Shown here piece after piece: positions 1 through 64,000 of a stretch of 64,000 bases of DNA. Source of the DNA: Tribonema minus (Eukaryota > Sar > Xanthophyceae > Tribonematales > Tribonemataceae); contig JAFCMP010000512.1 of NCBI GenBank assembly GCA_017506865.1, positions 558,001-622,000 of the forward strand, written 5' to 3'. Position 1 is the first letter of the stretch. Each line of letters begins with the position of its first letter. The translations under genes were made by a program, and so were the position numbers. Below the pieces are notes generated by a model. The model was not told where the DNA came from. It worked only from the letters and a program-made list of their open reading frames with translations, and searched no databases.

Positions 1-168
1 GCGCATAACTTGGCGAGATCTGCTGTCACACTGTAGCCTACAGCGAGCGGCTTGTAGTATGTGAATACTTGTTGAAGTACATATGTAGCAAAACCCTATA
101 CCATACATACCTCAAGTCGCGGGCATACATTGGCGAGGTCTGCGTCCGTCACACTGTAGCCTACACCA
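1..168 (-). repeat. Decayed copies of AAA exon 6 3' edge
   Basis: Two degraded copies (about 1-42 and 110-168) of the end of exon 6 plus its donor region (true copy 296-350). Both share the core gcatacattggcga or a close variant, and cacactgtagcctac. They lie in the intron downstream of exon 6 in gene orientation. Confidence 0.75.
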
Positions 169-295: not shown

Positions 296-3200
296 CTTCA
301 AGCCGCGCGCATACATTGGCGAAGTCCGCGTCCGTCACGCTGTGGTCCACGCCCGCCAGAAACGTGGCGCACATGCGGCGCAAGTCCGCAGGACCAGGGC
401 CGGCCACCTGCATCAGTTGCAGGCGTTGGTGTCCACAGCGCAGTTCACCGTGAGTTGTGCCCATGGGTCATGCAGCAGCGGCAGCAGACCAAGACTTCAG
501 AGTGAGACTTCAGAGTGAGAGTCTGAAGTAGGACTCTACAGCAAGGCGCTTTAGAGTAAGATGCAGCGCAGTCCGCAGGGTCAGGGCCTGCCACTTACGT
601 CAAGGCCGTTGGTTGACACATAACTAAAGTTCGTGCATTGCGTTCATGGGTCAGTGACAGGTGCATCTGCCTGTGCAATTCTGGAGCCGTGGGAGCCACG
701 TGCTACAGTGAACTGCAAGACTCCAGAGTAAGACTCTCTGGAGTAAGACTCTTGCGGAAGACTCTTGAGCAAGGGCTGCATGGGATGCTGAAATTGGTGA
801 TATGTCCTGCTGTGCGCAACAATATCGGCCTACATCAATGACCCGCTCGACAGCAACATAAAGTATACAGGTACTAAGTTTGCAGCTGATTCCGCTACCT
901 GTGGCTTGTGGATGTCAGGGCGTTTCTGTGCTGCACGTACCTTGCTACTCGCAGAACAAACATGTTATTACTACATGGTGATCAAAATACACTGCAGCAC
1001 GCCAGACTATGGCAGCCATTGTGACTGCAGACACTGACTCATGCCTCCGACTCAGCGACGGTACATCATCACACAGCAGCACGACGACGGAACATCGTTA
1101 AGAGGCTTTAACTGAGCACTAGAGTGGCCAGGTGAATTCATGAATCACCTGAATGCGCGCATGAAACCGCCTGAGCAGCGCCACATCCACATCTTCCGCG
1201 CGGTTGGTCGCCGCTATCACCGCGACGCCGTCACGAGAGCTGAGACCGCCCACCTTGAATGGCGACACAAAGACAGGTGCTACATCACGATGAAGACATG
1301 TGCAGCGTAGCATCTGAAATATTGCTGCACACTCGAAGTCGGTGATGACTGGAGCACCTGCGCGTTTGGAATCATATGCGTCTGAATCAGTAAATGTCAT
1401 GGCCTGCATGCGCTTCACGCTGTGTGATTGTCATATTTTGCAAAGGGCTGCCTCTCCACCACCGCAAATGAAGCAGTCGCCCCACCCTTCTCGCGAGCTG
1501 CAACTCCTCTCCCGCCCCTTCCCCCCCCCCCCCCCCCTCCTCAACAACAGTTTCACAGTATCACAGCTCGGCACCGCCTCACCTGCAGCAGCAGCTCCGC
1601 CAGCAGCCTCCCCTGCTGCTCTGGAACTGTCACATCCTTGCCGCGAAGGGACACGCTCTCCACCACAAATTAAGCAGACGCCCACGAGCTGCAAGTCAAC
1701 CCCACCCCTCCCGCCCTCCCCCCCTCCCTCTCCCTCTTAAACAAAACTTCAAGTCAGCGCTCGGCGCCCGCCGTACCTGCAGCAGCAGCTCTGCTAGCAG
1801 CCTGCAGGTCTGCAGGTCCTCTGTAACTGTCGCATCTTTGCCACGAAGGCGCCGACTCTCACCACCACAAACAGAGCAGATGCCCCACCCTTTTCGCGAG
1901 CTGCAACCCCCCCCCCCCCCCCCTCACAGCAGCGCTCGCTCACCTGTAACAGCAGCTCCGCCAACAGACGCACACCCTCCTCGTGAGCTTCAAGACGCTC
2001 CCTTCCCTCTTCAACAACAGTTTCAAGTCAGCGCTCGACGCCCACCTCACCTGCAGCAGCAGCTTCGCCTGCGGACGCACACCCTTCTCGCGAGCTCAAG
2101 ACGCCCCCCCCCCCCCCACACACACACACACCCCCATCCCCTCTTCGACGACAGTTACACAGCAGCGCTCGCTCTGTAACAGCAGCTCCGCCAGCAGTCG
2201 CCTCCCCTGCAGGTCCTCTGTAACTGTAGCATCTTTGCCACGAAGGCGCTGACTCTCACCACAACGAATGGAGCAGTTGCCTCACCCCTTCTCACGCGCA
2301 GCAAGACACCCCCACCCCCACCTTCGCCCTCCCCCTCTTCCACAACAGCTTCAAGTCAGCGCTCAGGCACCGCCTCACCTGCAGCAGCAGCTCCGCCAGC
2401 GCCTCCCTGGTACTCTGTCACTGTCGCATCCTTGCCACGAAGGCGCTGACTCTCACCACCACAACCAGAGCAGATGGCCCCCCACGCTTTTCGCGAGCTG
2501 CAAAATACCCCCCCACCCCCAACCCCGCGACAGCAGCGCTCGCTCACCTGCAGCAGCAGCTCCGCCAGCAGCCGCCTCCCCTGCAGGTCCTCGCACCCGT
2601 CCCTGCTGCACCCGAGCGCGTCAATCTCGTCCAGGAACACCACCGCGGGGGGCGCCGCGCGCGCCTGCGCAAACACCGCCCTCAGCATCCTCTCGCTCTC
2701 CCCCTGGTACTTGCTCAGTATGGAGCTGGGGGACAGGGCGTAGAAGCGCGCGCCCGCCTCGCCCGCCGCCGCCTCCGCCAGGCTCGTCTTGCCCGTGCCG
2801 GGCGGCCCTGGAGGCGTGCGCATGGGGAGAGTGTGCTAGCCTGTGAGCATTGTGCTGGGCTTGGCTCGTAGGTTGCAGTGCTGAGCGGCAGGGTACTGCA
2901 ATCTCGCTTCTGTCCAGCTGCACCACACTTTCTGTGACGCGATTTAGACAGCAAGTACGCTGGATGTCAATCAGCACTAATGATGAGCTCTCTTTTGGTC
3001 TCACGTCGCCCTTTTCCGTCCATATGTCACTCCTGCGCCCGGTATGCTCACTCTTTCGCGTTGTTTTGATTTAAAAGCGAGCAGCAACCGCATGTCCAAT
3101 CAGCCGTGAAGCCTTCCGATGCAGCAGGACGTTGCGCTGACGGCAGGCAGCCGCACAAGCATTGAAAAAACAGGTGCGTGTGTGAACTGTGATAGATCAT

Positions 3201-5364
3201 ATATTTGACATATACAAATCACGGTGACTACGCGCCGGTATGACAGGCACCAACGCCTCCTTTCTGGATCCAGATCTGCGTTCACCAACAGCACCACACT
3301 GCATGTCAGCCATATCACAAGTCCACCGTACGGCAGTTCTGGAACCAGGCAGCATACGCACTTCAACAACAATGGATGTTCGCATCGCAACTCACCGTAC
3401 AGCAGGACGCTCGCGCTGGCGGCGCACAGCCCCCGGCAGATCATTACTTCAAGTATTTGACGGTTAAAAAGCATGTTTGCCCACCAGCAACGCCCCTCTT
3501 CCTGGATCCAGACCTGCGCTCCTCGACAGCACTACACCAGATAAATGTCGCATGCATCGCAACTCACCGTACAGCAGGACGTTCGCGCTGGCGGCGCGCG
3601 GCCCCACAAAGATGGCGTCGCGGATGGACGGCGGCAGCGCCAGCGGCAGCACCACGTTTTCGCGCAGGGCCTGCTTGCCGCCCTCGCACCCCACGATGCT
3701 GTCGAAGCGCGTGGCGCTGATGGTGGGGGCTTGAACTTGGGGAGCGTCGCCTTGAAGTTCGTCGTCCTCGTCCGTCTCGCTTCCGGCCGCGGTCACGGCG
3801 ACGGGCCCCTCGTTGTTGCGCCCGCCGCCACCCTTGCAGGAAAAAGAATGGTAGCGGCAGTTATGATGCAGTGTTTGGGCCAGGCGAGATGCTGGAGAGC
3901 CCCTGGCGATAGTTTGCACAATCAAGGCAACAGCGATGGGCGTTGGAGGATTGACACAGATACAAAAACATTCATGAGCACCAGCAGCCGACTCCCTGCG
4001 GGCCGATTCAAGCTGCGATAAGTGCTGGCAATCTGTTCGGCCAGGCGCCATCGGTGAACCGCAAGCATTGCAAATGCTGCATTGAGCTTCAATATACTTC
4101 TGATCAAGCACGGCACTCGACAGTGTGATTCAAACCATGCTGATGTCAGACGACAGGGGCGCTTGGCGGTTCTCTCGGCACACAGTTCTAACACCCAAAG
4201 AGCCGGCACATTCGGGGCGTACTCGTGCCCCCAACACACAACCGACCAAGCACAGCACTTGACATTGTGATTCATAGCATTGCTGGTGCCGGATGACAAG
4301 CGCCTGGCATTTCAGGGTTAGGGTTAGGGTTAGGGTTAGGATCAGGGTTAGGGTTAAGGCGCCACCCGCACACAGCGCTCAACACCCAACCAGCCAGCAT
4401 GTTTGTGCACACTCACGCCGTAAAAACACCTTACAACCGTGCCAAACGCAACAAAAAGTCCAGGCAGTGACACATGTGGAGCAGCGTTGACAGCAACACG
4501 AATTCACTGGCGGCTACGTACCGTAGCGCCCATTTTTCCTTGTGCCACACTACTCTTGGAGCGTCCGCCGCGTGGCTTGGTGATCACGTCCACAGGGCTC
4601 TCAGCAGCCTGTACATGACAGAGTAGAGGGTGCAGCGCATTGCTTATGGCGGCGGCATGAAAACGAAGGCAAGTGCTGTACACAGCTGCAGCAGTGCATT
4701 TGTGGGGTGCTTCTGCAATGCACGGTGCTGGAGTAGATCTCCAATTCAGATGGCTTTTGGAAATGATGGCTCTGTTATTCCATGTGCCATCGTCTGAAGT
4801 GACCGGATGGGTCGCAAGCGAAAGAGAGCATAAGCGACGGTGCACCGCCTCTGTCGCAGTCGTGTGGATGCACTGGAAAGCGAATCGACTAAGATGACTT
4901 CAGCATGTTAGCACAGAAGAAGCGCACTGAGCCCTCCTGCTGAGGCATCAGGAACCACATGAATGCCGGCAGAGAGTGAACGTTCAGGCACCATAGGAGC
5001 TGCATCACCGATGTTACAGAACCCTTTTCAAGCCAACTCAGAACTGGGCTTAGGGCGCCGAAGCAACTGCTCAGCAACTCACCCTGTTGGTGGCAGCAGC
5101 AGGCTTGGCTTGAGACCGCACGGCCGCCTCCAGCATGTGCCTGCACGTCTCCAGATAGGGCCCATATGCGGCGATCGCAGGTGCAAACAGCTTGGACTGC
5201 GTAAGCAGATCTATCATGCTCTTGGCGGCGATGACATCATCGGCCCAAGGCTCACGGCAGCTCCCGCCTCCAGGTTGCGTCGCGGCGGCAGCAGCCTTCG
5301 CCTTCAGGACCAGGGAGTTGGCCTGATTGATCAGCTCCAGAGTGCCATTGCACAAAGGATCCAT
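296..5364 (-). CDS. AAA ATPase, meiotic clade (Vps4/katanin/spastin-like), 3' part off the left edge
   Basis: Six exons on the minus strand keep one open frame with matching phases: 5364-5083, 4608-4522, 3832-3568, 2807-2548, 1253-1149 and 407-296 (about 370 codons). Exon 1 starts at the ATG at 5364-5362 and encodes an alpha-helical N-terminus that could be a divergent MIT-type domain. Exon 2 is a basic linker. Exon 3 begins the AAA module (FDSIVGCEGGKQALRENVV). Exon 4 carries Walker A (GPPGTGKT, completed across the exon 3/4 junction), the pore-loop region (SKYQGESERMLRAVF) and Walker B (VVFLDEIDAL). Exon 5 carries sensor 1 (IAATNR) and the arginine-finger motif (LLRRF). Exon 6 is the lid region (HSVTDADFANVCARLE). 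The last helices must lie beyond position 1. Such ATPases disassemble protein polymers or ESCRT/microtubule structures; which subfamily this belongs to cannot be decided here. Confidence 0.85.
559..612 (-). repeat. Decayed copy of AAA exon 6 5' edge
   Basis: The stretch from gatgcagcgcagtccgcagg to aaggccgttgg matches the start of exon 6 and its acceptor (about 370-425) with several changes. It lies on the upstream, intronic side in gene orientation. The remaining 612-1148 of this intron shows no other recognisable feature. Confidence 0.65.
1440..2547 (-). repeat. Tandem array of exon 4 3'-edge copies in the AAA gene
   Basis: About six units of roughly 130-220 bp between exons 5 and 4. Each has the exon 4 end (cacctgcagcagcagctccg or a variant) followed by a shared intronic block: a 'tgtaactgtcgcatctttg' segment, 'cacgaaggcgctgactctca', a 'ttttcgcgagctgcaa' segment and often a poly-C run. 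Decay differs between units. Long proline-rich open frames across this array come from the repeats. Confidence 0.85.
3105..3567 (-). repeat. Tandem copies of AAA exon 3 3' edge
   Basis: Copies of the exon 3 end (aactcaccgtacagcaggac) recur near 3390-3440 and, more decayed, near 3300-3335 and 3105-3165. Each keeps flanking intron: a 'ctggatccagatctgcg' type segment is shared at about 3265 and 3503. The copy at about 3390 keeps the donor dinucleotide and consensus. Confidence 0.75.
4314..4357 (+). repeat. Interstitial telomere-like array (TTAGGG)
   Basis: Six or so tandem TTAGGG units with one variant unit, inside the intron between AAA exons 3 and 2. No neighbouring subtelomeric features are visible. 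Confidence 0.9.
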
Positions 5365-5701: not shown

Positions 5702-8700
5702 ATGCGGGCAGTTTTGCTCAGATCTTTGAGACCCTCTGGCAGGAGGGCGCTGTCAAAGCATGCCGGCAAGGCAGCGGCAGTGTCTCAGAAGCTCAAGTAT
5801 GAGGACATGCTACTGAGCAATCCACTGAAGCTTCCACGCCTTCCCGTCCCTGCACTCGGGGCCACAATGCAAAGGTACGTGCCTCGATCAAGAACCAAAA
5901 GATCTGCGTGCGAGAGACGAGTTGCATAGGTATAGGCATTGCAGGGCTGGGCCAAGCGCGATGGCAGCCTGCAACAACCAGCTGCACGTGTGTCCTGAGA
6001 CTCAGCCAAGAGGTTCAACTTCAACTCCTCATGGGTGTGCAGTTCGTAGCAAGTTGTGGCACGCCTTGCGTTGGTGTGCAGTATGCATCACGACACCTTC
6101 TGCAGGATACGTGTGTGTGCTCATGGCTGCTCTCAATTCGTCATTTTCAAAGCAACCTCCAGATGCAAATAATTACGCATGCTCATTATATACACCTTGC
6201 CATCGGCATCGGCTGCCTGGCGTATTTCTCTGGAGCTTGCTAGACTAAACAGAGTGAAGGCTGCACTGTTTCCCGACCAATCAATACATACTCCAGCGCC
6301 CAGTCATGATTGCAAGCTCTGCTGCACTGTGCTATTTGCATCCACTGCCTGGCTCATAGCTGCAAGCAGTAATGTCAGAGGCTAAACACGAGTTGATCTC
6401 GGTGATGCTTGCAGTCTTGCAGTCAATGCCAGCGTCACACATCCCTAACACTTCAAGTCACACGCACGTTCCCGACATGGCTTCGCAATCACTACATCAC
6501 GTTAATCTCAAAAGCAAACCCGTGCGCTCGCGCCAAAAGGTGGCTGGACAGCGTGAGGCCACACGCGGAAGGCGATGCCGGCAAGTGGGAGCACGCTCAG
6601 AAAATTGCCAAGGAGTTTGAGCACGGCGAAGGAGCGGAGCTGCACCGGCGCCTCGTGGAGCAGGACGCGAGCGATGCGGCGTTCCAGGGGGGGGGGCACT
6701 ACCCGCACTCGTACATTGAGCGTTGCTGGTGAGTGCTGTGTGAGTGGCGGCTGCAGTGCTCAATCTTGTAAGTGTGTACAAAGTGATATTCAAGGGGGGG
6801 GGGGGGGGGGGGCATCTGTACATAGAGGGCTGCATGTTGGTATCCTGTGCTGCAGTGCGCAGCAGCGGGGGGGGGGGGGGGGGGGGGGGTCACTTGCGGA
6901 GTGCGCACAATGACATTCCAAGGAGGACGGCATCATTCACACTCACACATGGAGCGGTAATGTGCAGCAGCCGCGCTGTGCGGAGCGCTGCTTTTGAGTG
7001 TCCTGTAATCCGGTGCACTCACGGTTGTGGAACCGTTGTAGACGTACGTCAGTTTTCAACCTGGCTCGGGCTTTCAGGGGACGCTGGTTGTTGTGACTGT
7101 GTTCGTCTTCATTTCCCTACACCACACCCGATCAATTGATGTCTGTAATTGATCTCACCTGAATATCACCCCCAATTTAAATAATATCTGGTGAACTATT
7201 GGTCGCTTTTCAAATTGGTTCACCTACGCAGCAGGAAATGACTAGTGTAGAAGGCTGTGCATCATTTGTTTGTCTTGTAAAAGTGCTAGAGAGATTGCTA
7301 CCCACGTACACACAGGAAGCTCACACTGGCAAGCCAGGCTGCAGCCAGTTTGGTGTGCATCAACTACATCATGGCGTGCATCACAGTCTTCTCATGCGAG
7401 GTGACGCATGCAACGGCAGCATATCAGGCCTGAGTATTGCAACGTATTTGGTGTTGGCGTAGGCGGCTGTGCCGAGTGTGCGCCCCGCCAATACATGTAC
7501 TTCATATTACACAAAACATGTAGAAAATTCCAGACTTATTCGTGTAAGTTTTGTAGTATATGCCCATGGTCTCCTTGCCGCCCAGCGCTTCTATGGCGTG
7601 CAGCCCGTCGAGCCCGGGGAGGCAAGCACGTACACACAACAGCACAATACTTAGCATATGAAATGAGAAAAATGACGCACGCAAGGGCACCACTCTATGG
7701 ACGCGCACATGTAGAGGCTTGAATGAGTGCGAGCATTGTCAATGGCATGTTGCCAGTTTAATGATTGTGACGTAACAATGTAAGACGGTGCTCAGCCGTC
7801 TGCACAGGCTGGCATCAGTGCTCAACCATCGCCTTGATGGCCGTGCCAGTCAGAGATGCCCCGATGCCTGACCCCGTGCTGTAACTGTTACGCTGTAACC
7901 GCAGGGATGACATGTATCTGGAGGGGCGCTGGGCACTGCCGATCAACTCAAACCCGGTGCTCGTGCTGCAGCCGCCGCCAAAAGGCTACAGCCCCATCGA
8001 CAGTGACCCACAGGTCTGCCTCTTGATGGGCATTACAACGCGTGGTTGCATCACCATCACCTGCACTTGATTGCCTACTATGGAAGTAAATTAAGTTGAA
8101 TTAGCTGATCGAAATAACAGCGTGTGGTCGCATCATCAGCTGTTACTGTGTTCTGTAGGGTGGGTCACAGATATCGACAGTGACCCACAGGTCTGCCTAC
8201 TCGCTCATTCGCAGCACTAGTTCAGCAGAGCGCGTGCTTGCAGCGCCAGCACTCGACTGCCTACCTGTTAAGAAACAGCGCGTGTCCGTATCACCAGCAG
8301 TTGTTTCTGTGTTCTGTATGGTGTGTCACAAATAGCAGTCATCTAGCGATGGTGGAGTATATATGCCTAGTGCTTTTTGGAGTCAGTTACAATGCAGGTT
8401 CTGAACTGCAACGAGTGCTGGTGACAAGTATTTGTCGACGGTTACGGTGTTGCATGTGCCTGTCTGGCCACCTTGCAAACGCCCACTTGCACTATATCCT
8501 GGCAGCCATGAAATGGTGTGGCTATGACCTGGCCTGAATGTGTTGCGCAACGCTGATGGGATTGTTAGGCGATGGCACTTGAAGTTTGCCATATCATTGC
8601 ACAAAATTTGTTGTGGGCGCAATCAGTGGTGGCTTTCTTGCTCAACTGTGAAACGCATTGCTCGCTGCCCTGCAGATCGCCACCGCCGCTGCGTTCATTT

Positions 8701-23346: not shown

Positions 23347-23828
23347 GCTTTTTCTCCTTGCCTGCAGGACTGACAGTAGTTCAACTTGAAGCTCCTGGTG
23401 AAGTTGTCAGTTGGCTTGCCTGACGGTGTGTGCTACGTTCTCGGCAAGACCCTGAGGTGAGCTCATATTCCTTGCTTAACTCTGGCTCGCTACATGTGCG
23501 ATTGTGTGTGGCAGAAGTTTTCAATATCATCGATCTGTTCGTAAGCAAATCACACATACACACACACAGCGGGCAATGGAGTTGCTGTAGGGGACGGTGG
23601 CAGAGACAAGCACGGGCGCCCTGTGCGCTTCTATTGAAATAAAAAAAGTTGCGCACGTGCAAGTTTGGCGCAAAACGAGCAAGCTGACTGTGGAGATACC
23701 TGGACAGCGTACAACATGTTGAGCGACACGGCAATCGGCGACGAGGCCATACAAGCGCTTTGCTTCATGTAGCGCCACGAATACACGAGCCTCACAAGGT
23801 TTCCTGTCACTCCCCCTTGTCCAGATAG
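23347..23828. other. Divergent region between LRR and TAZ genes
   Basis: Holds the upstream regions of both genes. One exon-like stretch (about 23382-23455, plus strand, reading LPDGVCYVLGKTLR before a good gtgagc donor) might be a 5' exon of the TAZ gene. Its phase does not clearly join the next exon and I recognise no family, so it is not called as coding. Confidence 0.35.
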
Positions 23829-37153: not shown

Positions 37154-37199
<46 letters not shown>

Positions 37200-55100: not shown

Positions 55101-58100
55101 CTGTTTTGCCGCCCATGCCAACGCGTCTGCACGTGATGCAACAGATACACTTGATGATGATGTACTCCAAAATTGGCCAGTGAATCCCCGTCATGTCTGT
55201 AGCAGCTGGCGGTCATGTGCGTCAGCGCGCCCAATGCACATGTTCGTTTCGTCAAGGCACATAGCTCTTGGAGTACTGACTGACACCTGAGCGCTCCCCC
55301 ATGAGCTGCATAAGCTGGTACGTACGCCATGACAGGCCGACCGTCAGATGCGTCTATCGTGTCAAAGAGGCGCAGAGCGCTCGCACTTCTGCGACAGTGC
55401 GGCCATCACACACGCTAATTTAACAAAGCAATAGAAGAGTTATCGATCATTTCGGAGCGCTGACATGCGATCGAGCTATCGCCTTTTCGCCGTGGATTGC
55501 GGCGCGCACCGTAGGCAAGCTTTTAAACGAAGCGTGTTCATCCGCGTGGACGCACGCAACCGCTTCTACTTGAGATTAAATTACTTCTACTTGAAGTTGC
55601 TAATCTGCATGACCATTACATCCGAGCACAGTGTAATGGCAGTATGACCATCACATCTGATCATCACCTGTCTGTGCGCTCAAGTCTCAGAGCACTGACA
55701 CGTAAGCTCTGCCCCCCCTTTCGCTTCAGATTGCGGCGCGCGTTTGAGTGCAACGATCTGGCGTGTTCATCAACCGTGTATACGCACACAACTGCTACCT
55801 CTACTTGAAGTCACAGTGGAATGGCTATATACTTGACCAAACACACCCGCTCATCACATATCTCTACACTTAGAATAACAGAGCACTGACACGTGAGTGC
55901 TGCCCTCAATTCCACTGCAGATCGCAGCGCGCGTCGTTGGCGAGTGCGATGACTTAGCGGTGCGGCGCGTGCGCAAGGCGCTGGGTGTGCGGCCGCACGT
56001 CAAGCAGATCGACACCCTCGCCGCAGAGTACCCCGCTGCCACCAACTACCTCTACATGACGTACCACGGCGCGGAGGTCAGTGCTTGTTGTACAATCAAA
56101 GTCCCCCATTGTATTTTTTGAAGTGCATGATGTTTTGAAGTACATGAGGTATACGTGCAGCACGCATGTTTGCAATACTCTACCGCCTTCAACGACGTCT
56201 ACACGACGTGCCACGGCGCGGAGGTCAGTGCTCAGTGTATGAGATCAATATGCCCAATGCTGGGAAGTGCATGATGTGTATTTATGCAGCAGGTGCAGCT
56301 GCAAAGTGTGCTGCTGCCACCAACTACCTGTACGTGACATACCACGGCGCAGAGGTCAGTGCTCAGTGCATTCCATATGATTACTAGTTACATGTAGATT
56401 CCAGTAGTGCAGAGTGTATGTGTTGCATGACGTACCACGGCGCTGAGGTCAGTGCCTGGCGTACGGGTCATAACACCATACTTTTGCTGTGTAAGCACAC
56501 CATGTATATCTGCAGCGCGCGTGGCTGCAACGTACCCCCTGGTATCCCCAGCTTTCAATGTAAATCATGTGTATTTGTAGCGTGTACGGCTGCACTCTGC
56601 ACTCTGCCGCCACCAACTACCTCTACATGACGTACCATGGCAAGGAGGTCAGTGCTCATCATATGGATCACTATGTACTTCAGAAGCATATGCAGATTAT
56701 GTGGTCGTTGGCAGCAGCGCACTTGATCTCTTGTCACCTGGGCCTGACTCCTAACGCGGAGGTCAGTGCTTGTTGTACGCATCAAAGTCCCCCCATGTAT
56801 TTATTGAAGTACCTACATGATGTATATGTGCAGCACGTGTTGTTGCAAAGTACTCTGCCGCCATCAACACCTATGTCGACATGACGTATCACAGCGCGGA
56901 GGTCAGTGTCACACACTGACACTTTGGGTACTTGCATGTATGGTCCGCGGCAGCACTGCGCTTCGACCCTAGTTGGCCAGCCTAAACTTCTAAAAACGTA
57001 ATTCTCATGGACTGGCCCCAACGCTCATCCTACAGTTGCACGCTGCCTTGCGCTTGCAGAACAACAGTGCGAACGACGGCGGCAGCTTGACGGCACTGGG
57101 CCACACCGCACGTCAACCCTAGTTAACACAGCCCTGACCCTAAATCTAATGCTCGCTGCTCATCCTTTGCCTTGCGAGTGCAGAACGAACTGTCAGCAAC
57201 GGCGGTGGGCCAATAATGCCGAGCAGCAGTGTACTTTAACCTGGTTAGCCAGCCCTGCTTTTAACCCTAAATGTAATTCTCATGGACTAGCCCTACTGCT
57301 GATCATCCCACGCCTTGCATCCGCAGAGCGACACTGTCAGCGACGGCGGCGGCATGATGGTGCTGGGCAGCGGTACCTACCGTATTGGCAGCTCCGTGGA
57401 GTTTGACTGGTGCGGCGTCAGCTCCGTGCGCGCGCTGCGGCAGATGGGATACAGGCACGTCACACGCTAATGTACTTCAAGTTGAGGGCACACAAAGGGG
57501 TCGGTCACAACAGTGAAGTTTGAGTTGAAGTGCAAGGGTTTCTTTCAGCGGAAAGCAGTAAATGTGCTCTGTTTCCAGCATGGTGCGCACATATGTACTT
57601 CAAGTTGAGGGCTTGAGGGGAACGTCACACGTCAGTGGACTTCAAGTGCAGGCTCAAGGGAGGTTGGCAGCAGAAAACGGTGCGGTCACCCCATTCTCAA
57701 TGTGATGTGTGGGTAGAGGCAGCGAGCAGCTAGAACGGTGTGCCGCAATCAGCTCATTTGTTCGTGTTGACCGGGGAACAAGGAACTGCTTGATGTTCAT
57801 GATGCAACCTTGATTAGGGTAAAAGTTAGGTCTGATGACTGCAAGGCGGAGATTCAGTTCAAGGTGGCCCTGGCGCTTGCGCTTGACTTTACAAGCGGCA
57901 TGGAATACGTTACAGGTGCAGATGTGCGAGCTCCGGCGCAACAGACATTAGCACCTGGCACATTGATCTGGTACCGACCTTTGCACACCAACGGCTACTT
58001 TGGTACCAAATATGCATGGCATTGCGCTGTGGTCAAACATGGCATGCCTACATGTGGGTCCCATCATGGCTACAGAAGCATACACTCGACCCCCCCCGCT

Positions 58101-61100
58101 CTCGTGTGCGTGCGCATGCACCTCACACGTGTGCCAGGGCCACTATGGTACTCTGCAAACCAGACGCTGCATGCAGTGTTTGCGTGATCAAGAAGGTGCG
58201 CTGGAGCCATGGACCCCTGCATGTTGTCGCACTGCAAACACAAGGATATACCACCATGCCCATCGTAACAACAAACAGCACTTCACATTCAGTACCTGCC
58301 CCGGTCTTACACATGCTACAGGGCCACCATGGTGAACTACAACCTGAGTGCTTGACATTCAGCACCTGCCCCTGCTCTGTCTCACACATGCTCCAGGGCC
58401 ACCATGGTGAACTACAACCCGGAGACTGTGTCCACAGACTACGACGAGTGCGACCAGCTGTACTTTGAGGAGCTCAGCAGGGAGAGGGTCATGGACATCT
58501 GCGAGCAGGTGACGATTGTATTCTGCAAATGCCTGAAAGTGCCTACCTTTGCCTTCACCTGACTGGTCAAGAAGCTCCATCGATCACTCAGGGTTAGGGT
58601 TAGGGTTACGGTTTGTCACTTTGAGGAGCTCTGCAGGGAGAGGGTCATGGATATCTACGAGCAGGTTACGATGGCGTTTCACAGATGCCCGGAAGGTCCT
58701 ACCTTTGCCTGCCTGGTAATAAGGTGCACCAATCACTTCATCTGCTTCTGCTGTCCCTCATGCGCACCACAAAACGCTGAAGGAGACGGTTGCGCGGCTG
58801 AGAGCACTCCATCTGCTGCTGCTCTCCTATCTACTCATCAGGGAGGTGTGTGCGGGGGAAAGTCACCAGCCTGAGACGGGCAAACCCCCCTGCGCTCTGC
58901 CCCTAACCCCTTCAAGTCGCTTGCTGATCGCTGCCACTCTTCTCTCTGTGGTAACAGGAAGCGATCGAGGGCATCATTGTGAGTGTAGGGGGGCAGATCC
59001 CCCAGAATCTGGCCTTGCCCCTCAAGCAGGCCGGCATGCCCATCCTCGGAACGGCGCCGGAGAACATCGACAACGCGGAGGACAGGCACAAGTTCAGCGC
59101 GCTCGTGGACGCTGTCGGCCTGGAACAGGTGCGCTTTTTTGTTTCAACAATTCCATTTTTTTAAAAACGTGCACGCCCGTGACTGAACAGCATTGGCACA
59201 ACAAGTCCTTTTCTGAACGTTCATGCCCATGACTGAAAAGCGTTGGCGTGCCCATTCTCGGAACAGCGCCGGGGAACATTGACAGCGCGGAGGACAGGCA
59301 CAAGTTCAGCGCGCTTGTGGATGCTGTCGGCCTGGAGCAGGTGCGGCTGTCGTTCTTCGTCAAGCCCTTTAGCAGAAGTATGTTGAACTTGAAGTATTGG
59401 ACTGGCACTTTCTTCACCGACGACGCACACGCCGTGATAGCACTGGCGTGTGTGTGTCTGGTGTGTTGTAGGCACTATGCCAGGGGAAGCATGTATGCGC
59501 CTTGTTTTTCTCTGTTTTGTGATGTCGATGCTCTGCAGTGGCACTGGCACGCAGTAACCCTTACCCCAACCCTAAACCCTTGTGATCACATGCCAAGGTA
59601 CTCGTGTCCATGCTGTCAAGTGCAGCAATGCTCCCATGTTGAGCAAGTGGGCGCGCTATGTACATGAGCCTGCCCAAAATTGGGCTACAAATTTGTGCTA
59701 GCGGTAATGCGCTTGTGCAGCACAATAGATGAACTGCGAGTATGACAAGTTGAAGCGGGATACAAACCCTCTTTGTTGCTAAGCAACAACAGCACTTATA
59801 CTAGCCTCAGCGGCAGCACGGTGCCGCCTGTGCTGGCGCTGATTGGCCAGCTGCCACTGCCATCATGTAGGCTGTGACAGGCTAACGGCGCGCAGGGAGG
59901 CATTGGTCGTGAAGACCGGCACATGCTCACCCTCAGCCTCCGCACTCGCCATCGCCACCGCCTGCTACTGCTCCATCTAGTCGCCGTCGCCGCCGCTGCT
60001 CCCCTCGCTGCGCTCCTCGCCCTAGGATTACGGTTAGGGTTAGGGTTAGTTAGGCCCTCGTACGCCGCTGCCGCCAGCTCTCTGTCAGGGGGGGCGTTTC
60101 CCTAGCAGTAAACGCCGGAGCCGTCGCTGACGCCGCACGTAGGGTGGTCGTGTGCCTAGTTGCTTTGGAGCAGAGGTCGATTGCCGCAAGCAGCAGTCGC
60201 CATCACCTTCCACGCCCTCAAGACAGACCAGACGCGTCAGAGTCACACAACCATCAGGAGCGGCGGCGCGGCGGCGCTGCTGCATGACTTCCAGGCGAGA
60301 GCCTGGCTTGATCGGTGAAACAGGACGGTCCCATTAATGGTCCAGTCCGTTCTCATGACGCCCAGACAGCCGCATAGAACGTGCACTTCCACCTGCCAAG
60401 CGGCAGAGTGAGAGTGCGCGTGCACGCTGACTCAGCAGCGGCGAAATGAGGAGGGCGAAATGAGGAGCAAGCAACACTGCTGCATCCCCACTGCGCTTTC
60501 CACGCTGAGGTCAGTCACAGCGTCAGCTGTGCACGCACACTGCGCCGCCGCCGCGCTGCCGCACCCTGACGGTCGTGTGACCCTGACGCATCTAGTCCGT
60601 CTTGGAGGCGCGGAAGGTGATGGCGACTGCCGCTCGCGGCGACGAGCCTACTCCGAGAGCAACTGCACACACGACCACTCTACGTGCGGCGACAGCATCT
60701 GCTCCGGCATGTACTGCGGCCGGCATGCGCTCCTCCATGTCCAATTTGCTGCCGTTGTCCTTCTCCGGCACATGGGTATCTGGTAAACGGTGCCGCGGTC
60801 CTGGCTCCCGAGCGCGGCCGAATACTTGTGGTAGTCGCGTCGCATGGCGTCCTGCAGCGCGCGTGCATCCACGCCGTGCATGACCAGCTGGCGCCCTTCC
60901 GGCGCGGCGGCCCCTGCTGCTGTCTGGAACGCATCCATAGGGTTAGGGTTAGGGTTAGGGTTAGGTTAGGGTTAGGGTAGGCGTACGGGCTGGCCAACCT
61001 CTGTCGAGATGGTGACTACGCCATCGGACGCGTTGGTTTGCGAATGCCCAAACAAGGCTGGCACAGCCTGCGCCATGAGCCTGGCCCCGTGTGAGGCCTA

Positions 61101-64000
61101 GCGGACACGCCGCCGCCGCCGCCAGTGTCGCCGTTCGCTTTTGTCTCGGCATGCTGCAGGTGATTCAACATGCCGGGTGTGAAGACGCTTTTCACCCACA
61201 TGGCCTCGACTACTGTGCTAGTGAGGGCGAGGTCCACCCTGGCTGCTTGCATAATGTCGCCAACGGTGGATGCGCGTTCGCTTTTAGGGTTAGGGTTAGC
61301 GTTAGGGTTAGTCTAACCCTAACACGGCGAATCTGAACTTGTGAGGTATGCCCCATGGATGAGGGCCGACGGCACATAGCCAGTCGACTGCCACTCGGCA
61401 GTCGCCACCTCCTCCCTTGTGGCAGCCTTGGCGTTGTTCGCCTGCCAGGTCTCGTTGGCGGCTTGCAACGCCTGAGTGGCTTGCTGTTGCTCCGCAACCT
61501 GCTGCTCCAAGGCCGCCAGGCGTTGCGCGGTGGGTGGCTGGGGTGGCATGTCCTTGCTTTCTCTGCTAGCCTTTAAAAATCCAGCTAGAACTCTGCTACA
61601 GCTGTGTGGCCAGTCTTGCTGGTCGGTGCCAAGCAAGGAGTGATGCACATGCTGCTGCCCATCCCAGACCTCTTGGCGAAATCTTCACACTCTTGAAGGC
61701 CTGTTCCCCGTTTATTGCTGAGCAACAAATGCTAGCCTCAGCTGGGCTCAGTTGCTTAGAATACAATGCCACCCGACAAAACGCTGTCAAACGGTCTTAC
61801 ACTGAGTCACTGCGAAGCAGAACGGCCGGGGGCAATCTGTCCCCCCTCCCCCGCCTCCCCCCCCCCCGCCAGTATCAACTACCATACTGCCTTTGCTACT
61901 TACCCCTCATATGTGCACTGTGTATATTTGGCGCTTGAGCAGGCGCCATGGAAGGAGCTTCGCAGCATCGCGGCTGCCCATTTGTTCAGATAACATGTAG
62001 TACCAGAAGGGCCTCTGTCTGTCACTTCCATTCTGCCATCGCTGCAGACCCCTCACATGTGCACTGCGCATGTGTTCTTCTGCTCGAGCAGGCGCCTTGG
62101 AACGAGCTCAGCAGCAGCGTGGCTGCTCTGGAGTAGCACATTTGTTTAGAGTACATGTAGTACCCCCCCCCTCCCGCGCATCACTTGCAGTTTGCCATTG
62201 CTACATACCCCTCACATGTGCACTGCGCATGTGTTATTGTGCTTGAGCAGGCGCCTTGGGAGGAGCTCAGCAGCAGCGCGGCTGCTCTCGAGTTTGCGCA
62301 GAAGGTCGGCTTTCCCGTGCTGATCCGGCCCTCGTACGTGCTGAGCGGTGCTGCCATGAATGTGGCCTACGACGCGGTGCAGCTGACCAAATGCCTCACC
62401 GAGGCAGCGGAGGTGAGCGTTGACACCAACGCATACAGTACGTATGTAGTCTTGGCCTTGCATTCACTTTTTCAAAGATGGAGGTACAGCACTTCAGCAA
62501 AGTATTTGACAATTTCTTATGATAAACGATGCGTTTTCAAGCTAATCCTGACCCACTGTTGGCTCATTTCTCGTCTTGAGTCTGGGTCAGTGAGCATGCC
62601 CTATGACAGCAGCACGTGCTGATCTGCGCATGCTATCACCGCGATCTAAATGGGCTGGCATCCAACGCGCAGATGACCACACAATAAGAGCTCCTCACGT
62701 ACCAATTGATGCCATCCTGACCTTGCTACCTGCTTGCACAATACCTTGCCTTTCAACTGCCATGACTCTCTGTACGATGCTTACTCGTGCTTCAACTTCC
62801 ACTCTGCAGGTCAGCAACGAGTTCCCGGTGGTGGTGTCCAAGTACATCAGCGGCGCGCGGGAAGTAGAGATGGATGCCGTTGCACAGGATGGTGAAGTCG
62901 TGGCCGCCGCCACGCACATACATGTGGAAAATGCGGGTGTGCACAGGTATGTGTGAATATATGGAAATGATTCAAAAGATCGTAGAGCTCTAGGTGACAA
63001 GGTGTGGTTAGCTGCCAGTGCCTTCCATCAATAGCCGTGGTGCTCATTCGCGGGCAATGTGCTGCCTCTGCGGGGTTCTCATTACTGAGCAGCGGTGACG
63101 CCACACTGCTGCTGCCGAGCGCTTCTGACATTTGCATACACATTTTTCTGTCACTACCCCAAGAACTGCTGGTGCTCATTTGCTGACACTGCACTATCGC
63201 TGCTGCTGTCATGTGCACGCACGTTTTTCTTTCACTGATTCATGAACACCTGGTGATCATTCGCTGGCACTGCACTGCCGCTGCGCTCGTCGTTGCTGAG
63301 CGGCCGTGACGCCACGCTGTTGCAGGCTACTGACATTGCATACACGTTTATCTTCCACTTCCATTAAGAACTCCTGGTGCTCATTGCTGACCTTAACACT
63401 ACTTCCGCGGTCGTCGTTGCCGAGCAGCGGTGACGCCACGCTGCTGCTGCCGGCGGGCCCAGAGGACCTCAGCAGCTACAGCTTCCATCGCGTGCAAGAG
63501 GCCACAGCCGCCCTAGCCAAGGCCCTTCAGGTACTATATTTGACCACACAGCATTTTTACATTGGTCTTAGATTGGCACTGGCTGACTTGACAACTTCAA
63601 CTTCACTTCAACAACGGCCACCGCCGCCCTAGCCAAGGCGTTTCAGGTCTCAGATCGGCAGTGGCTGACTTGACAATTTCAAATTCAGGTGAAGGTGATG
63701 GTGCAAGTGTTCTTCATGCACATGCTGGAGAATTGAGTTCGTCAGAGTTTGCCGAAGCCAGGTGTAAGGCTCTCATACATGCCCCCGTTCGTCACGCAAG
63801 TATTTTCGCTGCAGGCTTGCTGAATCAGAAGCGCATCAAGTAAGTTGGTACATCTCAGGCACCCAAGCACAAACGCCCCTTGAGCGAAGGAAATAAAGCA
63901 CAACAGTCAGCCATCTAGTGCTACTTCTTGTGTGATTGAGAAATGAGCACTCCAGCTGGTTGCTGTGCATGTTGGCTGTGCACTTTGTGTGTGCAAATGG
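27612..64000 (+). CDS. Carbamoyl-phosphate synthase II, fused GATase-CPSase (URA2/CAD-type), 3' end off the right edge
   Basis: 28 exons placed with fully consistent phases give 1219 codons in 35.9 kb. Exon lists are in the three sub-entries. The order is GATase small-subunit domain, linker, N-half ATP-grasp synthetase, oligomerisation domain, then the C-half synthetase up to ...[10 protein letters not shown]. The enzyme makes carbamoyl phosphate from glutamine, bicarbonate and two ATP, the first step of de novo pyrimidine synthesis. The start ATG at 27612 precedes a typical CAD-like beginning ([18 protein letters not shown]) with no transit peptide, so it is probably cytosolic. The rest of the C-half, the regulatory MGS domain and any DHOase/ATCase domains would lie beyond 64000. 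Introns reach over 6 kb (intron 12, with a Copia insertion). Intron 23 begins with GC. Confidence 0.95.
29881..30320 (+). repeat. Copies of CPS exon 2 3' edge
   Basis: Two copies of the exon end (cttgatcacaaagaatatca; cttgatcacaaagaagatac) at about 30036-30080 and 30245-30290 in units of about 200 bp. The intron blocks between them share ctgttgaagt and gctcac segments. Confidence 0.88.
30321..31508 (+). other. Rest of CPS intron 2
   Basis: No gene, transposon or RNA recognised. It contains several ACTTCAA/TTGAAGT motifs and a T run near 31172. Confidence 0.5.
32428..33130 (+). repeat. Array of about seven CPS exon 4 3'-edge copies
   Basis: The exon end (cgcaagctggtgaacaaggg, then gaggtgcgtca) recurs near 32490, 32580, 32680, 32775, 32830, 32935 and 33075 with growing decay. 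Unit length is about 90-130 bp, and 'ctgcacttcaacttga' is usually conserved after the donor. Some copies read a fragment of the exon 4 peptide (IVRKLVNKG). Confidence 0.93.
33225..33464 (+). repeat. TGAGCACTGACA minisatellite and one CPS exon 5 5'-edge copy
   Basis: About seven imperfect copies of tgagcrctgacrtg flank a strong copy of the exon 5 start with its acceptor (33293-33346, caggtgaccatggtccccca). The true exon starts at 33465. The 12-mer is the reverse complement of the TGTCAGTGCTCA motif common in later introns. Confidence 0.85.
33687..34545 (+). other. CPS intron 5
   Basis: No recognisable gene. A poly-G tract lies near 34033-34044. Confidence 0.5.
35330..35655 (+). repeat. Tandem duplication of about 125 bp, each copy ending in poly-G
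   Basis: Two near-identical copies (about 35335-35458 and 35462-35587) share cgagctgtgtgcccatcc and ccggcgctcccaagcataat. Each ends in a G run of about 20 or more; a third G run follows at about 35641-35656. In CPS intron 6. A 334-codon proline-rich minus-strand frame is an artefact of this array. Confidence 0.9.
36281..36382 (+). repeat. Upstream copy of CPS exon 8 5' edge
   Basis: cccagggtgtgtaccacgag appears at about 36280-36300 and again at the true acceptor (36379-36398), with flanking blocks shared. A further tandem duplication (catgtgcagactggtg) lies just upstream at about 36100-36245. Confidence 0.9.
36493..36770 (+). repeat. Downstream copies of CPS exon 8 3' edge
   Basis: Copies at about 36595-36655 and 36712-36765 of gccccaccgacaccgagttc and ctggaccactgcag, the first with gtgaag in the donor position. 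Confidence 0.88.
37156..37197 (+). repeat. (CTG)14 microsatellite
   Basis: Fourteen uninterrupted CTG units in CPS intron 8. A less perfect CTG tract lies at about 54888-54933, close to exon 21. Confidence 0.95.
37355..54985 (+). CDS. CPSII exons 9-21: linker, N-half ATP-grasp synthetase and oligomerisation domain
   Basis: Exons: 37355-37469, 38257-38433, 40230-40335, 41113-41183, 47695-47776, 48574-48647, 48963-49128, 49841-50001, 50955-51128, 52050-52156, 53090-53222, 54217-54360, 54944-54985. Landmarks: [124 protein letters not shown] and KRLGFSDNQ. This half activates bicarbonate with ATP and forms carbamate. The 42-nt exon 21 is the shortest well-supported one. Confidence 0.94.
37735..38256 (+). 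repeat. Array of six to seven CPS exon 10 5'-edge copies
   Basis: Acceptor plus exon start (gtgcaggcaggggagtttga and variants) recurs near 37744, 37808, 37870, 38007, 38083 and 38195, often preceded by a poly-C acceptor tract and followed by 'gccaaccatatattcctgtg'. Unit is about 60-110 bp. The copy at 38083 extends to the ggtcccaggccat segment. Confidence 0.93.
38434..38880 (+). repeat. Three copies of CPS exon 10 3' edge
   Basis: cgaggtcttcttcctgcccg and cgcactacgtcgagcaggta recur at about 38558-38603, 38685-38736 and 38826-38872 in units of about 130 bp. Each is followed by gtgtgtcagtgctcagtagg. Confidence 0.95.
38881..39300 (+). repeat. GCTCAG minisatellite
   Basis: Imperfect units of about 18-25 bp around 'ggcagcagcgctcagcaagg' repeat more than ten times. 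They seem to have grown from the tail of the exon 10 copies. Nothing else is recognised from 39300 to 40040 of this intron. Confidence 0.8.
40336..40550 (+). repeat. Two copies of CPS exon 11 3' edge
   Basis: cagacagcgctcacttgcgc (about 40393) and the relative at about 40495 repeat the exon end through ggcacctttgagaaa, each followed by the cgagtacataccctacatac-like intron block. Confidence 0.92.
41184..41400 (+). repeat. Copy of CPS exon 12 3' edge and a 43-bp tandem duplication
   Basis: atcatggccacggaggacag at about 41347-41396 repeats the exon 12 end; its donor position reads gcgagt. Before it, ctggaggattgcattgactg is duplicated in tandem (about 41243-41328). The block ttgaagtt follows both the true exon and its copy. 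Confidence 0.9.
41837..42099 (-). repeat. Copia 3' LTR
   Basis: A 263-bp repeat nearly identical to 46279-46543. A purine-rich tract (minus strand, ctgggggaggg) abuts its inner edge, as expected for a polypurine tract. Confidence 0.92.
42206..45296 (-). pseudogene. Copia pol region (integrase, RT, RNase H), broken
   Basis: Readable blocks on the minus strand: the GAG-pre-integrase zinc region ([16 protein letters not shown]...CETCHLGKA), the integrase core ([27 protein letters not shown]), RT ([44 protein letters not shown]) and RNase H ([37 protein letters not shown]). The region is interrupted a few times. Confidence 0.9.
45275..46336 (-). pseudogene. Copia gag region
   Basis: A 353-codon frame with the Copia gag-type start ([20 protein letters not shown]), a retrotransposon capsid-like middle ([16 protein letters not shown]) and a CCHC knuckle before a basic stretch. 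Part of a broken element. Confidence 0.88.
46279..46543 (-). repeat. Copia 5' LTR
   Basis: A 265-bp repeat matching 41837-42099 at roughly 99%. Its outer edge is followed by the CTAAG target duplication. Confidence 0.92.
46893..47260. repeat. Inverted duplication of a coding-like segment
   Basis: The plus-strand arm about 46893-47022 and the minus-strand arm about 47130-47260 are reverse-complement relatives. Both carry gacaacgtgcacggcgtact or its counterpart, and cacggcgcagtgatggcgtg. The arms read [13 protein letters not shown] and [13 protein letters not shown]. Just right of the Copia element. Confidence 0.8.
47124..47504 (-). CDS. Coding-like open frame of unknown family in CPS intron 12
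   Basis: A 126-codon frame antisense to the CPS gene. Its composition is protein-like ([38 protein letters not shown]), and part of it is duplicated in inverted form at 46893-47022 with the peptide partly conserved. Conservation between the arms suggests the source was coding. It may be a fragment of a gene or transposon carried with a rearrangement. I recognise no family. Confidence 0.35.
   Translation of the reverse strand: MRRCRHSWREALDRKRPSSRGHGNTSQIASTVACLLNLIGGQLACQQYSMCLHLLGGTSQEVMHALLPPPGRFAKVHIPRPVPQVEGSTAQFIIQSIADNAHGVLERFHGAVMAWAHRRFTIIAAP
47777..47885 (+). repeat. Copy of CPS exon 13 3' edge
   Basis: gtgccggccgcgctcgctgc and gccaagcgctcggtgagaac at about 47839-47881 repeat the exon 13 end and donor; the following acttgaagtt-type motif is repeated too. 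Confidence 0.93.
49129..49715 (+). repeat. Array of four CPS exon 15 3'-edge copies
   Basis: gaacgacaactgcatcactg and cctgggcgtgcacaccggta recur at about 49188-49256, 49335-49400, 49497-49570 and 49635-49702 in units of about 150 bp, with gtaaga or gtgaga donors. The first keeps the reading frame through the copied region. Confidence 0.95.
49768..49812 (-). repeat. Degenerate CCCTAA-type array
   Basis: C-rich telomere-like units (accccaaccctaagcttaac) directly upstream of CPS exon 16, on the opposite strand to most other arrays in the window. Confidence 0.75.
50002..50290 (+). repeat. Array of four CPS exon 16 3'-edge copies
   Basis: gcagtgcaacatacag and 'aattactgcattatcgaggt' type segments recur in units of about 60-80 bp between 50009 and 50285. 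Most keep gtgagc in the donor position. Confidence 0.93.
50800..50845 (+). repeat. Copy of CPS exon 17 5' edge
   Basis: gtgtgcagattaacgctcgc followed by a shortened version of the exon start (ggctggcgtttgtc). The true acceptor is at 50953-50954. Confidence 0.8.
51129..51445 (+). repeat. Two near-identical tandem copies of CPS exon 17 3' edge: possible cassette exons
   Basis: A unit of about 159 bp (donor, intron block with gtccatgggtatgcttgtgt, tattttag acceptor, exon end) is present twice. Potential exons 51203-51286 and 51362-51445 are each 84 nt, begin after ttttag, end at accaag|gtatgt, lack stops and keep phase 0. Each would add 28 residues that repeat the exon 17 end. Confidence 0.92.
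52765..53089 (+). repeat. Copies of CPS exon 19 5' edge
   Basis: gcttgcagaaggcgctgcgc, cgtgcagaaggcgct and gcgtgtagacgggcgctgcg at about 52768, 52888 and 52976 resemble the exon 19 start (true exon from 53090). 'gcctcagcagctgagccgtg' type blocks are shared between units. Confidence 0.88.
53223..53500 (+). repeat. CPS exon 19 3'-edge copies mixed with a CCCTAGCAACACTAG minisatellite
   Basis: Copies of gcgcatgttcgccatcgc at about 53376-53400 and 53440-53462 are embedded in five to six imperfect repeats of accctagcaacactagccct. Confidence 0.85.
53800..54216 (+). repeat. Four CPS exon 20 5'-edge copies
   Basis: Copies of gcaggcgctctacgagggca at about 53809, 53886, 54038 (very close, extends through gacgaggcccacaac) and 54122 (weak), each with 'cttcgcctcacgcc' and 'atcatgacatcat' type intron blocks. 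Confidence 0.9.
55490..55920 (+). repeat. Decayed CPS exon 22 5'-edge copies
   Basis: gattgcggcgcgcaccgtag (about 55495) and gattgcggcgcgcgtttgag (about 55730) resemble the exon 22 start, with 'cttctacttgaagt' and 'gagcactgacacgt' blocks repeated between them. Confidence 0.78.
55921..63530 (+). CDS. CPSII exons 22-28: start of the C-half ATP-grasp synthetase
   Basis: Exons: 55921-56076, 57327-57454, 58397-58508, 58958-59128, 62251-62412, 62810-62946, 63428-63530. Landmarks: [108 protein letters not shown] and [15 protein letters not shown]. This half phosphorylates carbamate. Exon 23 ends in a GC donor (gatacag|gcacgt), the only choice that keeps the frame into exon 24. A possible 25-nt exon at 63815-63839 (LLNQKRIK) has a good acceptor and gtaagt donor, but an exon before it would be missing, so it is not counted. 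Confidence 0.93.
56077..56910 (+). repeat. Array of about six CPS exon 22 3'-edge copies
   Basis: The end of exon 22 (accaactacctctacatgac; gtaccacggcgcggaggtca) recurs near 56190, 56320, 56430, 56620, 56755 and 56875 in units of about 110-190 bp, each followed by gtcagtgct. Decay is uneven; the 56620 copy is very close to the exon. Confidence 0.95.
57050..57326 (+). repeat. Two CPS exon 23 5'-edge copies
   Basis: ttgcagaacaacagtgcgaa with gacggcggcagc (about 57055-57100) and gtgcagaacgaactgtcagc with aacggcggtggg (about 57178-57212) precede the true start at 57327. 'ccctaaatgtaattctcatg' type blocks are shared. Confidence 0.85.
57455..58129 (+). other. CPS intron 23 body
   Basis: Begins with a GC donor. 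A block of about 25 bp (atgtacttcaagttgagggc) occurs twice, at about 57470 and 57594. Nothing else recognised. Confidence 0.5.
58130..58396 (+). repeat. CPS exon 24 5'-edge copies
   Basis: cagggccaccatggtgaact occurs at about 58318 and at the true exon (58392); a weaker cagggccactatggtac is at about 58136. 'gtgcttgacattcagcacct' type blocks are shared. Confidence 0.9.
58509..58670 (+). repeat. CPS exon 24 3'-edge copy
   Basis: ctttgaggagctctgcaggg through cgagcaggttacg (58618-58670) repeats the exon end and donor. A TTAGGG array (58588-58606) sits just before it. Confidence 0.93.
59129..59345 (+). repeat. Near-identical copy of CPS exon 25 3' half
   Basis: About 100 bp (59245-59340, from gcgtgcccattctcggaaca to ggcctggagcag) repeats exon 25 with few changes, stays open in the exon frame and keeps a gtgcgg donor. 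Evidently recent. Confidence 0.95.
60100..60715. repeat. Inverted duplication with arms of about 170 bp
   Basis: The plus-strand arm about 60551-60715 and the minus-strand arm about 60100-60275 share gaaggtgatggcgactgc, 'gtgtgaccctgacgcatcta' and 'cacgaccactctacgtgcgg' type blocks with scattered differences. The arms are about 275 bp apart. Confidence 0.82.
60939..60980 (+). repeat. Interstitial TTAGGG array
   Basis: Six to seven TTAGGG units, one short by a base, between two coding-like minus-strand blocks. A smaller array lies at 60021-60052. Confidence 0.93.
61283..61323. repeat. Head-to-head telomere-type junction
   Basis: ttagggttagcgttagggtt is followed within a few bases by tctaaccctaac. 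TTAGGG runs meet CCCTAA runs, the arrangement expected of a telomere-telomere fusion or a fold-back. Confidence 0.9.
61925..62250 (+). repeat. Two CPS exon 26 5'-edge copies
   Basis: gcttgagcaggcgccatgga (about 61935) and gctcgagcaggcgccttgga (about 62083) repeat the exon 26 acceptor and start, followed by gagctcagcagcagcg. 'tacccctcacatgtgcactg' lies upstream of each copy and of the true exon. Confidence 0.94.
62962..63045 (+). repeat. Dispersed repeat, copy 2
   Basis: Starts with atgattcaaaagatcgtaga and ends near ccatcaatagccgtggtg. Matches 15930-16012 over about 80 bp. It begins just after the exon 27 donor. Confidence 0.82.
63050..63427 (+). repeat. CPS exon 28 5'-edge copies
   Basis: gagcagcggtgacgccacac with ctgctgctgccg (about 63087-63118) and gagcggccgtgacgccacgc (about 63297) precede the true start at 63428. 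'aactgctggtgctcatt' blocks are shared between units. Confidence 0.92.
63531..63655 (+). repeat. CPS exon 28 3'-edge copy
   Basis: ggccaccgccgccctagcca with aggcgtttcaggt (63614-63650) repeats the exon 28 end and donor. 'ggcagtggctgacttgacaa' type blocks follow or precede both copies. Confidence 0.93.

Follow-up and report, generated by a model that had tools for sequence, protein, structure and literature searches.

The window, a 64-kb stretch of Tribonema minus DNA, carries three genes, encoding a fused GATase-carbamoyl-phosphate synthetase (CPS), a carnitine acyltransferase, and an AAA ATPase. The analysis of echoes, copies of an exon edge within the adjoining intron, covers these three genes. 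The CPS gene lies on the + strand and extends from 27612 to beyond 63530. Its exons were located by tblastn with E. coli CarA and CarB, followed by GT-AG signals (GC-AG at E20) and phase. When spliced, exons E7-E25 form one open frame that starts at the end of the GATase domain and takes in most of the synthetase, and with the phase carried from E4 through E25 (E6b included), every exon is open in that phase. The GATase and synthetase domains are in frame from E7 to E8 (36383-37469), so the small and large subunits appear to be fused.

The carnitine acyltransferase gene was assigned by Pfam PF00755 and PDB relatives, and its exons were mapped with a bacterial homologue (tblastn) and by eye. 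A carnitine acyltransferase exon has no relative in viral_contigs and matches one bacterial-labelled locus in genome_contigs, which was used solely as a reference protein. A contig from a MAG labelled Chloroflexales encodes a 603-aa open frame belonging to this enzyme family, 52% identical to exon C10. The AAA gene, on the - strand, was mapped by Pfam and by eye. Together, the models supply 80 homology-placed splice edges (42 donors and 38 acceptors); missing from them are exon E3 of the small subunit, the C1 and C4 acceptors, the AAA exons beyond A1-A3, and a probable acyltransferase exon near 15.8 kb. Two introns are probably of the GC-AG type, with donors at C4 (8786) and E20 (57454), and the first C4 echo retains the GC donor context. 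In the window, no Rfam family matched at gathering score, and a tRNA scan was likewise negative.

Other elements are also present in the window. A Ty1/copia-type LTR retrotransposon occupies 41834-46544 inside CPS intron E11-E12a, with terminal repeats of 267-269 bp that are 98.1% identical and a pol frame at 42951-45395 (- strand) containing integrase and RVT_2 domains. The same intron contains a near-palindrome at 46891-47235 (75%), and intron E22-E23 has inverted repeat arms at 60105-60276 and 60546-60717 (82% identical). The stretch 19500-27400 between the acyltransferase and CPS genes shows almost no local duplications and includes an FNIP-repeat frame at 22027-23406 (- strand). A small dispersed repeat with a ATGATTCAAAAGRTCGTARAGCTC core occurs at 10152-10196, 62945-62993, 15928-16005, and 24348-24384; after C5 and E24, its similarity begins at AG|GT, which looks introner-like, and it has no exact hit in viral_contigs. 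Short telomere-like TTAGGG/CCCTAA tracts are scattered across introns and spacers, for example at 24744-24778, 60938-60978, and 12544-12594. Introners and complementary intron ends were also considered; k-mer counts show AACTTGAAGTT-like words and TTAGGG tracts, but their listed positions have no regular tie to intron ends.

Self-BLAST of the window returned 121 pairs, and those separated by less than 500 bases comprise 97 direct and 2 inverted pairs. Each splice edge was then represented by a 60-base query (40 exon and 20 intron bases) and searched against the 1500 bases flanking it on the intron side, a stretch that ran on past the next exon where there was one. A score of 27 served as the threshold; it is the 99th percentile in a sample of 1302 comparisons to other introns, the best of which scored 36. 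A significant direct copy lies on the own intron side of 36 of the 80 edges (22 of 42 donors and 14 of 38 acceptors), leaving 44 edges with no significant echo. The controls gave 2/80 for the far side of the exon, 3/80 for the reverse complement, and 0/80 for the reversed sequence. These results bear out the original prediction that exon ends are copied into the adjoining introns and, within the window, that exon edges match their own introns more often than other introns.

Longer queries (up to 90 exon and 60 intron bases), run against the same uncut 1500-base stretch with at least 12 exon bases and an alignment score of at least 36 required, list 72 copies at 35 edges and none at the other 45. 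The clearest series belong to CPS exons E13, E4, E19, E14, and E15, acyltransferase exons C6, C7, and C10, and AAA exon A2. The sites in the AAA and acyltransferase genes are as follows.

3-343, - strand: probable AAA exon ending near 296 with two echoes, identified by eye and outside the 80 edges; Pfam gives no hit on this stretch
1443-2592, - strand: donor edge of AAA exon A2 (2807-2548) and six echoes on its 3' side (lower coordinates)
3122-3605, - strand: donor edge of AAA exon A1 (3568), an echo at 3433-3382, and a weaker one at 3158-3122
7996-8198, + strand: donor edge of C3 (7905-8013), with 26/26 bases repeated at 8173-8198
8724-9249, + strand: donor edge of C4 (8786, GC donor) and two downstream echoes
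9893-10096, + strand: acceptor edge of C5 (10028-10153) and an upstream echo
11566-11882, + strand: donor edge of C6 (11446-11606), three units of about 107 bp head to tail
12265-12451, + strand: donor edge of C7 (12223-12304), two 92-bp units head to tail
12912-13797, + strand: repeat field upstream of C8 (13790-13964), ending 8 bases inside the exon and so below the 12 exon bases required for a listed copy
17073-18044, + strand: both edges of C10 (17286-17504), the acceptor with one echo upstream and the donor with three downstream

The CPS gene contributes the following sites.

29848-30348, + strand: donor edge of E2 (29762-29880) and two downstream echoes
32377-33103, + strand: donor edge of E4 (32314-32427) and seven downstream echoes
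33228-33506, + strand: acceptor edge of E5 (33465-33686) and one upstream echo (33236-33340)
36236-36401, + strand: acceptor edge of E7 and one upstream echo
36438-36819, + strand: donor edge of E7 (36383-36492) and two downstream echoes
37717-38291, + strand: acceptor edge of E9 and an upstream repeat field (listed echo 38031-38120)
38381-39145, + strand: donor edge of E9 (38257-38433) and three downstream echoes
40269-40602, + strand: donor edge of E10 (40230-40335) and two downstream echoes
41145-41426, + strand: donor edge of E11 (41113-41183) and one downstream echo (41355-41426)
47737-47905, + strand: donor edge of E12a (47695-47776) and a downstream echo (47833-47905)
49060-49712, + strand: donor edge of E13 (48963-49128) and four serial downstream echoes, at 49184-49313, 49327-49400, 49497-49629, and 49638-49702, with exon-part identities of 62/69, 58/69, 57/68, and 48/58
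49946-50309, + strand: donor edge of E14 (49841-50001) and four downstream echoes, one holding an exact 23-base junction repeat
50794-50983, + strand: acceptor edge of E15 and one upstream echo
51057-51485, + strand: donor edge of E15 (50955-51128), repeated in tandem without gaps as 2.7 copies of a 158-159 bp unit that are 95% identical
52766-53125, + strand: acceptor edge of E17 and two upstream echoes
53196-53611, + strand: donor edge of E17 (53090-53222) and an echo at 53373-53401, with two more decayed echoes seen by eye near 53435 and 53580
53940-54262, + strand: acceptor edge of E18 (54217-54360) and an upstream echo (53990-54087) that keeps TTGCAG|GCGCTCTACGAGGG
55627-55934, + strand: acceptor edge of E19 and one upstream echo
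56023-56908, + strand: donor edge of E19 (55921-56076) and five downstream echoes
56950-57368, + strand: acceptor edge of E20 (57327-57454) and two upstream echoes
58122-58710, + strand: both edges of E21 (58397-58508), the acceptor with two echoes upstream and the donor with one downstream
59033-59345, + strand: donor edge of E22 (58958-59128) and an echo (59251-59345) matching 82/90 exon bases and stopping 5 bases into the intron
61857-62293, + strand: acceptor edge of E23 (62251-62412) and two upstream echoes
63038-63648, + strand: both edges of E25 (63428-63530), the acceptor with two echoes upstream and the donor with one downstream

All of these copies sit within existing introns beside their source exon, and the CPS frame E7-E25 is open without them. 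Donor echoes lie downstream and acceptor echoes upstream, in direct orientation, as the strict side rule of the original prediction stated. However, the rule needs no separate mechanism. It follows from tandem duplication and selection on the exon, because only the tandem copy joined to the exon body can stay functional and the extra copy becomes intron. Of the 72 copies, 62 cross the junction, but the intron match is shorter than 10 bases in 22 of 54 donor-side copies and 2 of 18 acceptor-side copies, so the claim that the units include some intron does not visibly hold for every one. The short donor-side matches may reflect a native intron eroded down to its splice signal, a signal that is longer at acceptors.

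The copies range from near-identical to decayed, as predicted. The native edge and its nearest copy are separated by 75-212 bp (median 155, 35 edges), and the largest exon part per edge measures 14-90 bases (median 42), the ceiling of 90 being set by the query. Contiguous head-to-tail arrays are found at C6, C7, and E15. Copies of one edge resemble each other in the length of their exon parts, with an SD of 5.2 compared with 10.9 after shuffling (0 of 2000 shuffles as low). This likeness suggests that most multi-copy edges probably go back to one founding duplication followed by array growth, a simpler account than the dozens of independent boundary events originally envisaged. At 14 of 19 edges, the copy closest to the exon surpasses the average of the later copies in exon-part identity, but across all copies the correlation with distance is weak and not significant (Spearman -0.19, P 0.12).

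Among the 42 of 72 copies with at least 15 aligned bases on both sides of the junction, identity is 89.8% in the exon part and 84.6% in the intron part, the exon part being higher in 33 of 42 pairs. In exons with a fixed frame, which excludes the AAA copies, mismatches at codon positions 1, 2, and 3 number 77/920, 54/923, and 148/920, and all 28 gaps in the exon-copy alignments break the frame. These figures are close to the prediction for a frozen sequence paired with a free one, in which changes in the copy account for most differences at positions 1 and 2, and changes in both sequences for those at position 3 and in the intron. Together, the codon-position mismatches and the frame-breaking gaps make the echoes look like neutral debris. 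GT is kept in 33 of 42 donor copies, a count that demands GT although the native C4 donor is GC, and AG is kept in 17 of 18 acceptor copies. By our own estimate, this retention is roughly that expected under neutral decay.

Whether exon edges are over-represented among local duplications was assessed at the level of repeat components. Local pairs number 153 direct and 2 inverted, and the direct repeats form 51 components, none of which contains a whole exon or lies inside the LTR retrotransposon. Thirty-seven components, holding 12905 of 14800 bases, touch an annotated edge, each exactly one, which agrees with the original count of more than 25 clusters; one more (3-343) is probably at the edge of the unannotated AAA exon, as judged by eye. 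Within the 33 annotated introns, 30 components touch an edge and 7 do not, 4 of the 11 intron-only components having been dropped for touching edges of introns outside the 33. With units of 100-220 bp, simple geometry predicts that 17-22% should touch, a figure that rises to 29-36% if copies at edges stay visible for twice the time. In CPS E4-E25, 26 of 31 components touch an exon, compared with a mean of 11.0 and a maximum of 18 for rotated maps (0 of 1000 reach 26). The TTAGGG component at 58590-61312 was left out of the geometry, rotation, and simulation comparisons. Short tandem arrays with units of 13-41 bp overlap the coordinates of none of the 80 edges.

The intron flank taken by itself speaks against a special role for the edge. 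Of 411 deep-intron tiles of 60 bases, 35% have a local match above 27 on either side and 18% one above 45. The 60 intron bases adjoining an edge match above 27 in 34 of 80 cases (42%), which is no clear enrichment. Queries that reach into the exon stand out at high scores, exceeding 60 at 25 of 80 edges compared with 9.5% of tiles, and part of this is due to slower decay of the exon half. In the intergenic stretch at 19.5-27.4 kb, local matches above 27 occur in 5.3% of 132 tiles, and no tile exceeds 45. Overall, the component-level tests favour over-represented boundaries in this window, within models that are coarse and a sample of one window.

Tandem duplications might strike everywhere alike and be easier to see at edges, where one copy is conserved. 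We consider this explanation unlikely, although two points speak for it: intron-only local repeats exist (35333-35585, 29332-29646, 46599-46876, and others) and match 35% of deep tiles, and two neutral copies diverge about twice as fast as a neutral and a frozen one, with which the codon-position and intron figures agree. A forward simulation with substitutions, deletions, constrained exons, uniform duplication, and long introns gave a mean touching fraction of 0.28 (0.14-0.42), and none of its 60 runs reached 0.81; the observed counts are 30/37 or 31/39, and the CPS rotation result also stands against uniform strikes. The edge-biased version with long introns gave 0.78 (0.69-0.90, 8 runs), compared with 0.79 observed (31/39). 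The simulation parameters, including the edge rate, were chosen by the author rather than fitted. Homology-driven array expansion was tried as a source of the bias and gave a mean of 0.30 (0.13-0.45, 12 runs), so that expansion by itself does not make edge bias. Of the 115 observed pairs, 57% touch an exon, compared with 68% in the edge-bias model and 22-32% in the others; the observed value falls in between, and the edge-bias model comes closest on components and pairs together. A smaller set of simulations (3 runs per scenario) gave 0.18-0.39 for steady long introns and 0.41-1.00 for growing introns.

The last figures bear on a scenario that we regard as improbable, in which short introns of about 100-300 bp were recently swelled by random tandem duplication and units longer than the intron crossed its edges. 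Simulated growth to a mean of 1000 bp does cover the observed 0.79 (0.60-1.00 from starts of 100-200 bp, and 0.64-0.76 from 300 bp), but it leaves 260-958 pairs with 22-32% touching, compared with 115 pairs and 57%, and among pairs at least 90% identical it has 23-29% touching, compared with 58% of 26 observed. Maintenance of the echoes by selection as alternative, backup, or decoy splice sites would fit the many copies that retain GT or AG in context. Yet this retention is close to our estimate for neutral decay, all 28 gaps break the frame, and codon positions 1 and 2 also differ; this decay pattern makes selection for decoy sites very unlikely. Least credible of all is an assembly artefact of collapsed or mis-joined repeats. 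A few arrays are indeed at least 95% identical (51057-51485, 35333-35585, and 41243-41325), but in most of the 72 copies the exon part has diverged from the exon by 5-26%, and codon-position structure and frame-breaking gaps are not made by assembly error.

The explanation that we favour, with reasonable though far from complete confidence, is that short segments straddling splice junctions are repeatedly tandem-duplicated at the DNA level and that the edge bias is most likely mutational. Such a segment would be duplicated head to tail, with only the copy attached to the exon body staying coding and the extra copy always turning into intron. The duplicated region may then act as a small tandem array that adds copies, and older copies would be pushed deeper into the intron, as on a conveyor belt, decaying free of constraint. 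The exon would serve as a seed copy that never decays, aiding the bias. With units of about 155 bp, replication errors on the scale of a nucleosome or an Okazaki fragment come to mind as possible causes of the edge bias, as do breaks linked to transcription. G+C falls from 63% to 53% at the exon-intron borders. A bolder reading, which we hold only tentatively and think somewhat less likely to be right than wrong, is that exon-intron borders in this lineage act as genuine hotspots for tandem duplications of nucleosome size, which would make them the chief source of intron DNA. Introns would then lengthen at both ends in conveyor-belt fashion, with interiors made of decayed exon-edge residue, and each would contain a dated record of its own junctions.

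Echo fields, measured from the edge to the farthest listed copy, span 8678 of 32325 intron bases (27%) in 33 introns, a total that leaves out the retrotransposon. Coverage reaches 93% in intron E19-E20, from E19 donor and E20 acceptor echoes, 87% in E4-E5, and 81% in E13-E14. This share is compatible with the suggestion that boundary duplication is the main way introns grow here but does not establish it, as no copy is listed for 10 of the 33 introns. Because old echoes fall below detection, the actual share could be higher.

Discussion of where intron DNA comes from and why introns lengthen centres largely on transposons, introners, and rare intron gains. In these housekeeping genes, growth by boundary duplication can be read from the introns themselves, and as each echo pairs one frozen with one free copy, such introns contain their own neutral clock. 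If the edge bias extends genome-wide, splice junctions would be a mutational hotspot with a steady supply of spare splice sites. Homology-based gene finders should expect many false exon ends in such genomes.

Among known systems, the echoes agree with a tandem array made by local duplication, given the 153 direct and 2 inverted pairs and the contiguous arrays, and the similarity of exon parts within an array would be compatible with repeated use of a single unit. Introners do not account for them, as the echoes match their own intron (36 of 80 edges) and none of the 1302 comparisons with other introns scores above 36. Tandem duplication of mutually exclusive exons does not either, as all 37 edge-touching components touch exactly one edge. 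Intronic minisatellites and tandem arrays consist of head-to-tail units in serial copies of like extent. Echoes share this arrangement; unlike intronic minisatellites in general, their founding unit straddles a splice junction and their components concentrate at exon edges.

In Tetrahymena LRR genes, tandem exon arrays with an intron length cycle copy whole units of a 90-bp exon plus intron, according to PMC6564038. Both cases involve tandem duplication within genes and changing intron length, but no component in the window contains a whole exon. PMC3443670 reviews how tandem duplication gives rise to new introns, and PMC2891723 reports Drosophila cases. The common feature is that local tandem duplication involving exon sequence yields intron DNA; unlike those gains, the window needs no new intron, and the copied segment holds an existing junction and adjoins its source exon. 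In a literature represented mostly by titles and the starts of abstracts, with few subscription journals, no description of pervasive boundary-echo introns was found. Within that literature, single boundary-crossing duplications are already published, and the frequency of echoes and their edge bias were not found in print. The closest parallel is the potato RdRp gene, where, according to PMC4974935, one tandem duplication crosses an intron-exon border and carries splice signals, and an 83-bp duplication inside an intron is also mentioned. The duplications in the window likewise cross the border with splice signals. In potato, a new intron and a new piece of exon were made, whereas in the window the frame is open without the copies, all of which are intronic and which number dozens in three genes.
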